Notes under the pieces: model-generated | What the model saw: only the letters and a program-made list of their open reading frames with translations | Told to the model about the DNA's origin: nothing | The model's database searches: none | In this document: in pieces, positions 15,783 through 60,623 of the stretch | How the letters are laid out: each line of letters opens with the position of its first letter | Numbering within the stretch: the stretch's first letter is position 1 | Position numbers and translations under genes: made by a program | Source: an uncultured Spirochaetales bacterium | GTDB lineage: Bacteria > Spirochaetota > Spirochaetia > Sphaerochaetales > Sphaerochaetaceae | DNA: 64,000 bases | NCBI GenBank assembly: GCA_949285785.1 | Contig: CASEAG010000028.1 | Span: 353,161 to 417,160 of the forward strand | Direction of reading: 5' to 3'

Positions 15783-16321
15783 ATGAAAAGGAAATCCACA
15801 CTACAGCTGATCGTCATCCTCCTTGCGGTGATGATCGCCCTGTTCTCGTTCACAGCTTGTGATGACAATCCCAATGCCCCCCCGAAACGGGCGAAGAGCA
15901 GACCGGAAACCCAGATGACAATCCACCAGTGCTCTCGGACGAGGAGGCATTGACGGGCCAGTGGCTCGTTTACCGGCTCGATGATAAAACGCAGAAAATG
16001 GAATTCGGTAAATCCGTCATCGATATCCAGTACACGGAACCCGGATATTGGATAATGGCTTACATGAAGAATATTTCAGACTCGACTGCCAATTTAGGAG
16101 GCTTCAAGTTCCAGTCGAATCGCACGTTGCAGGCAGACGGCTGGTTTGTCGTATCAGTCTCAGAAGCAGAAGGTGGTTATGAAATCAGGTACAGGTTCCG
16201 GGATTCGGACAGGAACACGCTGGATGCGGAATATCATGAGGCAGGTGTGCAAGACGTGAACAAGCTGGAGCTCAGACGAGTCACCGACAGAGTAATTGAA
16301 ATCATCGAAGAGCCGAAATGA
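15783..16321 (+). pseudogene. Lipoprotein gene out of frame at a C7 tract (possible phase-variable ORF)
   Basis: An ATG at 15783 after AAGGAG (15770-15775) encodes a good lipoprotein signal (LLAVMIALFSFTAC, then DDNPN). In this frame translation runs off into a 56-residue product ending at 15953. The body, about 140 residues (QWLVYRLDDKTQKMEFGKS ... TDRVIEIIEEPK), is in the -1 frame and stays open back through the C7 tract at 15877-15883, where it reads PPETGEEQTGNPDD. One extra C, or a -1 ribosomal slip on C CCC CCG, would join the two into a ~179-residue lipoprotein. The body resembles small lipocalin-like 'ALTGQW' lipoproteins. A decayed gene or a sequencing error in the tract is the alternative. 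Confidence 0.7.
15877..15883 (+). repeat. C7 homopolymer at the frame break of the lipoprotein
   Basis: Seven C residues lie exactly where the signal-peptide frame and the body frame must be joined. Slipped-strand change to C8 (or C5) restores a single reading frame. Confidence 0.75.
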
Positions 16322-21209: not shown

Positions 21210-21932
21210 CTAGAAACCATCCCTCCTCTCCTCAAAGCGCCAAGCAAACCGGAAATCACGTCCACTCTCTGTGAGAGAGAAGATGATTTCGTAAACTTCA
21301 TCCTCCTGACTATTCTGATAGATGATCTTCAGGTCATCCTTGTGCGCATTGAAGTCAAGGATTGCAATCGGCCATTTACCATTTTCATCCGGCTCCATGT
21401 AGCCGTATGTCTTGATGCTTATGTTGTCCTCAGAAATTGTCGCAGGGAAACCCTCTTTACTGTCGGTGAAGCTTCCATGCAGGAATGACGGAACCGAAAG
21501 CGTTTGATTGCTGATTGTATCTGAAACAGGGACAAGGAAGATGGACCTGATATACGGGCTTCCTTCATCATTACCTTCCATCTCAAGCGATATCTTGTCT
21601 TTTGTTCCGCTTATGCTGACTGTGATCTGTGTGGCATTGTTGTTTGGCAGGTTGTCTGAATACGGTGCGGTGAACTTGTAGCCTTCATGGCTCTGGTCGA
21701 TGACGATCGAGTCAAGCGATGCGTAGTCGGAAAGCCTGTAGACACCTTCACCTAACCAGGAACTGGTTATTTCTATGTCGTGTGCACTGATGACGACCTT
21801 TTCAAGCGCACCGGTCCACTCGCCATGAAACTGTGCGGGGATGTTCATGCTGACGCCTGACGGGGTGTCTCCTGAACATGAGACAAAGATCAGGGCTACA
21901 GCAACCAATGCTACAATGAGAATTCTCCTCAT
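21210..21932 (-). CDS. Lipoprotein of unknown function behind a poly-G promoter
   Basis: 240 residues; ATG at 21932 after AAAGGAGG (an upstream start at 21950 would overlap the ribosome binding site). The lipobox is LIFVSC with Cys near residue 19. The body has a small beta-rich pattern with a QFHGEWTGALEKVVISAHDI segment, typical of spirochaete lipoproteins that begin with a 'F.G.W' lipocalin-like strand. A second half starts with PSFLHGSFTDSKEGFP, so the protein may be an internal repeat of two such domains. There is no catalytic motif. Its promoter contains a G8 tract between -35 and -10, so expression is probably switchable. Confidence 0.75.
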   Translation of the reverse strand: MRRILIVALVAVALIFVSCSGDTPSGVSMNIPAQFHGEWTGALEKVVISAHDIEITSSWLGEGVYRLSDYASLDSIVIDQSHEGYKFTAPYSDNLPNNNATQITVSISGTKDKISLEMEGNDEGSPYIRSIFLVPVSDTISNQTLSVPSFLHGSFTDSKEGFPATISEDNISIKTYGYMEPDENGKWPIAILDFNAHKDDLKIIYQNSQEDEVYEIIFSLTESGRDFRFAWRFEERRDGF

Positions 21933-21965: not shown

Positions 21966-21993
21966 ACCCTACCCCCCCCGAGCGGGTTGTCAA
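21966..21993 (-). promoter_or_regulatory. Promoter with G8 tract in the spacer (phase-variable candidate)
   Basis: Read on the reverse strand: TTGACA (21993-21988), a 16-base spacer that ends in eight G residues (21979-21972), then TAGGGT (21971-21966). The predicted transcript start is about 27 bases before the ATG at 21932. Gain of one G would give the optimal 17-base spacing. Confidence 0.75.
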
Positions 21994-59324: not shown

Positions 59325-59358
59325 GGAAAAGTCAGGCCCTTATAAAGCCATAAGAGCC
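59325..59358 (-). terminator. Terminator of the beta-helix lipoprotein gene
   Basis: GGCCCTTAT (59335-59343) pairs with ATAAGAGCC (59350-59358) with one mismatch. On the reverse strand TGACTTTTCC follows, 16 bases after the stop. Confidence 0.7.
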
Positions 59359-59373
59359 CAACTCTGGTTTGGA

Positions 59374-60405
59374 TCACGCGGAAGGTTCCTGTATCACTTT
59401 ACAACCGGATACTTTGACAATAGCATCTGTTCTAGCTGAATCGTTCCATACAGCGTTTACTTTATCAGCAGCAACTCCTGAGATGTCATTTCCTTCACCC
59501 CAGTTGATTGTTGCACCAGCCGTATTCGTAACGAGGACTGCGGCCTTCGAGTCAGAAGAGAAAGTCGTACCGGAAACGTTCAATGTGACAGCCTTCGGTT
59601 CATCGATATATTCATCCGCGATCTTGATGGCTCTGTTTTTATTACCTGTAGAGCTCTTTCCACTGATTATGCAATTCTCGATAGTTACGGTCTGACCAGT
59701 GGCCTGAATCCAAAGCATATAAGCATCTTGTGTACAATTGGCATCAGAAATCCGTGAATTCCTTATTTCAGCATTCTTTCCAATTGCAATTGCATTGGTT
59801 GCCGTAACATTGTCCAGGACGACATTGCAATCGAAGGTTATGTCATGACTATTCCAAGGTCCGTCATCAGCATTATATCCTGAGTTGTCGATAGTGGCGT
59901 TCTTGATTGTGAGCACGGCATCTTCATTCTTTGTGTAGATTGCATTCCAGTCAGAGTCGGTGTTGTGGAATGTAATGGTATGCCCATTACCTTCAACCAC
60001 AATGCTTGTCGTACTCGCAGTGCCAAACACGGACTTGTCATTTGTATCCCTCCATGGAGCGATATCAATTGTGATATCATCCTGAAGGCTGATGATGACC
60101 TCGCCTTCGTTCATTGTCGCCTTCAGAAAGTCTGCTCCATTACTGACGATCATTTTTCCGCATGCTGTGCACTTGCCATTCGCATCAGGATTGTGTCCCT
60201 TTGCAGGAATCGCTTCAGTCTCTGTCTCAGAACAGCCTTTACACGTGCGCGTCCTCACGCCTTCCTCTGTGCAGGTTGCCTCCTTTGTGATTGTCCATTC
60301 TCCAAATTCATGCTCATGAGGTGCTGGAGTCGGAGTGTTGTCGTCGCAGGCGACGAAGGCGAACAGCATCATTGATGCCAGCAGCAGGACAAGTAGTCTC
60401 TTCAT
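59374..60405 (-). CDS. Surface lipoprotein with right-handed beta-helix
   Basis: 342 residues from the ATG at 60405 (AAGGAG nine bases upstream; the ATG at 60414 sits on that site). Lipobox LFAFVAC, then DDNTPTPAP. Residues ~30-85 are a Cys-rich repeat unit (EFGEWTITKEATCTEEGVRT then RTCKGCSETETEAIPAKGH and CTACGK) seen in many surface proteins of gut bacteria. Residues ~100-330 have the short beta/Asn-rich turns of a parallel beta-helix (TIKNATIDNSGYN, VVLDNVTATNAIAIGKNAEI, RNSRISDANCTQDAYMLWIQ, VTIENCIISGKSS). A polysaccharide-binding or adhesion role is likely. The gene is AT-rich relative to its neighbours and lies behind a promoter with a G8 spacer. Confidence 0.82.
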   Translation of the reverse strand: MKRLLVLLLASMMLFAFVACDDNTPTPAPHEHEFGEWTITKEATCTEEGVRTRTCKGCSETETEAIPAKGHNPDANGKCTACGKMIVSNGADFLKATMNEGEVIISLQDDITIDIAPWRDTNDKSVFGTASTTSIVVEGNGHTITFHNTDSDWNAIYTKNEDAVLTIKNATIDNSGYNADDGPWNSHDITFDCNVVLDNVTATNAIAIGKNAEIRNSRISDANCTQDAYMLWIQATGQTVTIENCIISGKSSTGNKNRAIKIADEYIDEPKAVTLNVSGTTFSSDSKAAVLVTNTAGATINWGEGNDISGVAADKVNAVWNDSARTDAIVKVSGCKVIQEPSA

Positions 60406-60430
60406 CAGATTCATCTCCTTTTCTGCTGGA

Positions 60431-60457
60431 AGGCTACCCCCCCCGCCCTCTTGTCAA
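60431..60457 (-). promoter_or_regulatory. Promoter with G8 tract in the spacer (phase-variable candidate)
   Basis: Read on the reverse strand: TTGACA (60457-60452), a 15-base spacer ending in eight G residues (60444-60437), then TAGCCT (60436-60431), 26 bases before the ATG. It has the same architecture as the promoter at 21966-21993. Gain of one or two G would give 16-17-base spacing. Confidence 0.75.
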
Positions 60458-60560: not shown

Positions 60561-60596
60561 CAAAAGAGGCCGTGCCTCCCTGTAGAAGCACAGCCT
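60561..60596 (-). terminator. Terminator of the ygfM-xdhD operon
   Basis: GAGGCCGTGC (60565-60574) pairs with GCACAGCCTC (60587-60596) with one mismatch. Reverse-strand TTTTG follows, 28 bases after the xdhD stop. Confidence 0.85.
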
Positions 60597-60623
60597 CGTC
60601 ATTCATCTGAATGGATCCGGGTC

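Follow-up and report, generated by a model that had tools for sequence, protein, structure and literature searches.

In Treponema pallidum, the syphilis spirochaete and an organism that is hard to grow, promoter switching by poly-G tracts has been worked out in detail for a few genes of outer-membrane proteins. At TP0126, which encodes an OmpW homologue, a poly-G tract lies between the -35 and -10 hexamers and transcription is best at a spacing of 17 nucleotides (nt); meningococcal porA is governed by the same principle of poly-G spacer-length control, and both cases are experimentally established, as reported in PMC7864442. The T. pallidum tprE/G/J and tprL promoters carry tracts of 7 to 11 G's, most often 9 at tprL, and tpr tract length alters reporter activity, with heterogeneity demonstrated in vivo (PMC7864442). 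Here we describe a poly-G promoter at positions 60431 to 60457 of a 64,000-nt stretch (the window) from the genome of an uncultured Spirochaetales bacterium (contig CASEAG010000028.1), a second one at 21966 to 21993, and the recurrence of their design in related genomes. It is probable that these promoters undergo slipped-strand phase variation through changes in spacer length, and that such variation acts genome-wide on lipoproteins.

The 60431 promoter lies on the minus strand and has the anatomy that a preliminary description of this DNA gave it: a perfect -35 hexamer TTGACA (60452 to 60457), a 15-nt spacer composed of AGAGGGC and GGGGGGGG, of which the last eight bases, the proposed slippage site, are G (60437 to 60444), and a -10 hexamer TAGCCT (60431 to 60436). 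TAGCCT is separated by 25 bases, TCCAGCAGAAAAGGAG and ATGAATCTG with a ribosome binding site AAGGAG (60415 to 60420), from the ATG start codon (60405 to 60403) of the lipoprotein gene at 59374 to 60405. At the second site, also on the minus strand, TTGACA (21988 to 21993) is followed by a 16-nt spacer of ACCCGCTC and G8 (21972 to 21979) and by the -10 hexamer TAGGGT (21966 to 21971), ahead of a 240-amino-acid (aa) lipoprotein (MRRILIVALVAVALIFVSC) encoded at 21210 to 21932. The shared layout of TTGACA and a G8 adjoining TAG had been recognized beforehand, though the one-base difference in spacer length had gone unstated; the two proteins are unrelated, as also proposed, and the body of the second has no Pfam match. 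Both promoters thus hold a homopolymer at least as long as the 7 to 8 bases expected between the hexamers of a porA- or TP0126-type locus, and both precede a predicted lipoprotein, which is presumably exposed at the surface. In the window as a whole, two of the five lipoprotein genes carry a tract. A DNA search across the genus for an orthologue of the 21966 locus returned none beyond this genome.

The design recurs far beyond chance expectation. Pattern searches, together with reading of selected stretches, covered the source genome (G000), a 2.05-Mb assembly of 40 contigs that is 96% complete, and the reversed pattern served as a composition-matched control for motif counts. G7 by itself is no rarity at this base composition, with five matches in the window versus about 10 in dinucleotide shuffles. 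The joint motif is rare: TTGACA-N5-11-G6+ yielded eight distinct sites in the genome and none in the control; one (C38:22490) is not promoter-like, and in the remaining seven G7+ is followed by TA. The preliminary description had called for a genome scan of this kind, and the exact design, TTGACA-N5-10-G7+-TA, was found seven times versus zero for its reverse. Among the 139 genomes of the family sample, which are also the only ones that the order comprises, TTGACA-N(0-25)-G7+-TA occurred 263 times versus three in the control (table summed), nearly all in three genera. In a class-wide sample, the motif was common in two other families as well (f24 and f11), with up to 20 sites per genome. The poly-C version of the TTGACA pattern was weakly above control, making poly-G the main form. 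Because the searches demanded only TA after the G tract and left position 6 of the -10 box free, the presence of T at that position (TANNNT) in 165 of 171 sites from four taxonomic groups identifies the box as a sigma-70 -10 element and the sites as promoters.

These promoters are strongly biased toward a single class of gene. From the family we retrieved and inspected 143 distinct sites, 126 of which had an open reading frame (ORF) starting within 160 nt under our first procedure. A lipoprotein signal was present in 117 of those 126 ORFs but in only 23 of 229 background ORFs, or 10% (Fisher p about 1e-58), a contrast that is conservative, since the background, drawn from stretches of the source genome, includes tract-bearing lipoproteins. 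With similar copies removed, 96 of 109 downstream genes encoded lipoproteins, and the remainder included several secreted or barrel-like proteins or lipoproteins overlooked by our crude test. In f24 and f11, too, the downstream genes were mostly for lipoproteins or secreted proteins. The source genome has 25 G/C tracts of at least 7, of which 19 are of at least 8. By our reading, 13 of the 19 precede lipoprotein genes, and another falls inside the gene of a secreted barrel-like protein, in coding sequence right after its signal peptide; two tracts in tRNA genes belong to the G7 class.

Tracts that never varied had been named in advance as an observation that would speak against a switch, and this is not what we found. 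All genomes were consensus assemblies, mostly metagenome-assembled genomes (MAGs), with one genome per species. In 12 of 16 near-identical pairs of paralogues within a genome, the number of G's differs, and the same 16 pairs show only seven gaps altogether in the following ~100 nt. Genome G039 holds three copies with G8, G9 and G11 that are 99 to 100% identical over the next 100 nt, and G042 holds two copies, with G9 and G10, whose flanks are identical over 75 and 42 nt. A sister species in the same genus (G008) has an orthologue of the 59374-60405 lipoprotein, with 91% protein identity, whose promoter spacer is AGAGGGCA and G8, or 16 nt, versus 15 nt here; from the -35 to the first ~100 nt of the gene, the two loci otherwise differ by a single substitution. 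Among six paralogues of the source genome, differences in length between the -35 and CAGAAAA are confined to the spacer. Length polymorphism as known from porA and TP0126 is therefore present in paralogue pairs, in the G9 and G10 copies, and between orthologues. As consensus assemblies present them, these differences are a sign of fast tract evolution rather than of switching within a clone.

The six paralogues also revealed that the 60431 promoter belongs to a larger repeated unit. In an alignment, six loci of this genome share a cassette that runs from the base before TTGACA, where homology has a sharp edge, through the -10 box, leader and signal peptide to about CDDNTP. The sequences upstream of the six cassettes are unrelated, and BLASTP at E 1e-3 with the first 45 residues removed detected no similarity among the cassette proteins, two of which share a weak Pfam beta-helix match. 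This pattern suggests that switch and leader act as a unit before different bodies, and either recombination or divergence could have produced it. The 21966 promoter lies outside the cassette. The earlier proposal that one switch design had been reused before different proteins is supported, with the correction that the 60431 site is not a fully independent reuse, since it belongs to a set of six copies in which promoter and leader are shared; the 21966 promoter is independent of that set. In the sister genus g10 (L164-L183, L231-L290), a large paralogous lipoprotein family of about 440 aa has TTGACA-N9/10-G8-12-TAGSCT promoters. Some copies of the cassette (L168, L169, L170, L176, L238, L241) end their contig 40 to 150 bases after the tract; promoter-leader repeats break assemblies, and true copy numbers are therefore probably higher. 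Other variations on the design include a cluster of three poly-G lipoprotein promoters on about 5 kb (L160, G011:C24) and, in f24 (L330, L343 and L349, G432), tracts of 15 to 17 G's within TTGACA...TA sites, compared to the usual 8 to 10.

Under the mechanism we favor, the 60431 site would be a sigma-70-type promoter with a hypermutable G tract between its -35 and -10 boxes. Slipped-strand mispairing would add or remove G's and alter the distance between the hexamers, 15 nt here compared to the usual optimum of 17, so that transcription of the lipoprotein gene would rise or fall in a heritable, reversible and random manner. One or two more G's would strengthen the 60431 promoter; contraction would strengthen promoters at the longer spacings of g10. 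With the same design before many lipoproteins, each cell would express a random combination, and clone-mates would display different surfaces. The benefit may be escape from host immunity, from phage or from other surface predators, or a change in adhesion. A genome-wide on/off system had been proposed at the outset; its genome-wide extent agrees with the recurrence described above, but spacer lengths of 14 to 17 nt, and of 18 to 21 nt in a sister genus, do not fit a strict on/off action so well as they do graded promoter strength. Spacers in this genus measure 15 to 17 nt, with one of 13, and those of the g10 family have maxima at 16 and 19 and are scarcer in between, a spread that predicts graded expression, and a graded effect is the more likely one.

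Several observations weigh against spacer-length switching. On account of its 15-nt spacer and weak -10 box, the 60431 promoter was missed by a simple automatic sigma-70 scan. In the G008 orthologue, the additional nucleotide is an A next to the tract and the G count is 8 in both species, although one substitution in a tract of G9 would give the same picture. Most spacers in the sister genus are 18 to 20 nt, which would be a poor fit to sigma-70 unless the majority of copies are kept in a low state. Repeated cassettes also often lie at contig ends, where some length differences could be choices made by the assembler.

Artefact was considered together with chance, given that the sequences are MAG consensus, that homopolymers are error prone and that G7 alone is compositionally unremarkable. 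The combination is hardly credible as an explanation for a 263-to-3 excess over the reversed control or for orthologous sites conserved between independent genomes, and in a viral collection of 2.9 million contigs, the pattern extended to G8 turned up in just 47 scattered stretches, which we took to be chance. A more serious candidate is a fixed operator, in which a regulator or alternative sigma factor reads TTGACA-N-GGGGGGGGG-TANNNT and the lipoproteins constitute a conventional coregulated regulon. Such an operator would account for the targeting of a single gene class, for the contact between tract and -10 box at most sites, and for a modal tract length of 9 whatever the rest of the spacer, yet an operator should keep a constant position and length relative to the promoter. 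Within this one genome, the tract may adjoin the -10 (TTGACA-N7-G9-TA), adjoin the -35 (TTGACGGGGGGGG...TA) or consist of C's; three lipoprotein genes carry it close to the -35 (TTGACG7-8 ... TA) and in others the spacer contains poly-C, so the same gene class is preceded by tracts in shifting places. Tract lengths range from 7 to 17 and differ between otherwise identical copies, and similar G/C tracts are also present within genes of this genome, immediately behind the part that encodes a signal peptide or lipobox (C5:41619; window 15877-15883). A position that moves argues against a fixed operator, while a spacer that works by changing length is free to move, and we regard the operator as unlikely.

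It is more improbable still that the tract has no function and was carried along with an expanding family of paralogous lipoproteins. The six cassettes, shared from the -35 to the leader, and the common promoter of the g10 family are what such hitch-hiking would leave behind. However, the tract has been retained while its length drifts, it stands in promoters without shared flanks (21966, C21, C25, C28:86158 and C35) and before unrelated leaders in other families of the class, and the predominance of lipoproteins persists among dissimilar downstream genes. Slipped-strand variation of the promoter spacer remains the explanation we favor.

The protein controlled by the 60431 promoter has 343 aa, with the signal peptide MKRLLVLLLASMMLFAFVAC and a clear lipobox, LFAFVAC. 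It had been described as a beta-helix lipoprotein, and this description is upheld by a Pfam match of its body to a pectate-lyase-like adhesive domain (PF20585, Pectate_lyase_5, E 2.9e-8) and by an AlphaFold2 model from a two-sequence input that is all-beta at moderate confidence (mean pLDDT 73). Foldseek searches with this model returned, at weak E-values throughout, beta-helix proteins that include pectate lyases, chondroitinase B and an SRRP adhesin of L. reuteri, and the body is predicted to be a parallel beta-helix. Upstream, 3' of a molybdopterin enzyme gene, a terminator-like hairpin on the minus strand (60566 to 60597, a 14-pair stem and then T4) suggests that the lipoprotein gene forms its own transcription unit, although the number of such hairpins is near chance expectation; another possible minus-strand hairpin, weaker as evidence, lies 3' of the lipoprotein gene (59335 to 59349).

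Other tracts came to light in different settings. On the plus strand of the window, at 15783 to 16321, a lipoprotein leader (MKRKSTLQLIVILLAVMIALFSFTACDDNP) enters a C7 tract (15877 to 15883), beyond which the probable body is read in a different frame (ORF 15929-16321); this looks like a coding-sequence contingency locus in its off frame or an assembly error. A candidate translational switch is the in-frame G9 at G000:C5:41619-41627 (L043:6122-6694, minus strand), which immediately follows the signal peptide of what is predicted to be an outer-membrane beta-barrel protein with a weak PF13505 match. A C8 at G000:C39:71072-71079 (L060:6073), upstream of a 777-aa protein resembling a polysaccharide chain-length regulator, raises possible phase variation of a surface polysaccharide, and a C9 near the end of a membrane-protein ORF of 568 aa, at its codon 562 (G000:C28:296876-296884, L054:6877), may switch the frame there. 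A 3.5-kb contig (L082) from a MAG labelled Eubacteriaceae has two TTGACA-N6/7-G9-TARCCT promoters on its reverse strand, at 874 and 2269, each preceding a bacteriocin-like peptide with a double-glycine leader; sites in this MAG are limited to that one contig, which may therefore be misbinned.

Our data suggest that poly-G switching is a strategy widespread in the class, aimed mainly at lipoproteins. A bolder proposal, to which we would give slightly less than an even chance, is that several mostly uncultured lineages of the class maintain a lipoproteome that is phase variable at the promoter level throughout the genome, with as many as some 20 poly-G promoters slipping independently in each genome, and that a mobile cassette of promoter, ribosome binding site and signal peptide captures new mature bodies while switch and leader are kept. 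For practical purposes, TTGACA-N6-10-G8-10-TANNNT offers a simple signature by which phase-variable surface genes could be predicted in uncultured spirochaetes. One may also ask what it is that these bacteria hide from.

The principle of poly-G promoter switching is known. Within the open-licence literature searched, we found no paper on phase variation in Sphaerochaeta, only T. pallidum papers on poly-G lipoprotein switching in spirochaetes, and nothing on use across spirochaetes beyond T. pallidum, a focus on lipoproteins or a shared cassette, an absence that open-licence papers alone leave unproven. TP0126 is the closest relative in design, being an outer-membrane gene of a spirochaete with poly-G between the hexamers setting the spacer, as summarised in PMC7864442. 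Unlike that single beta-barrel gene, many lipoproteins share the design and a promoter-leader cassette here, in an uncultured lineage outside the genus and family grouping of T. pallidum. The tprE/G/J and tprL promoters likewise place poly-G before surface-protein genes, but those genes encode outer-membrane proteins, not lipoproteins. In Neisseria meningitidis, opc has poly-C over its -35 box and porA has poly-G in the spacer, the homopolymer acting as a volume control in each; both homopolymer placements are present in this genome, whereas porA and opc are two single genes of an unrelated phylum, without family-wide reuse before lipoproteins. Coding-sequence contingency loci of Campylobacter and Neisseria also rely on poly-G/C slippage near the 5' end of surface genes, but there it is the reading frame that is switched, while the 60431 and 21966 sites would act on transcription.
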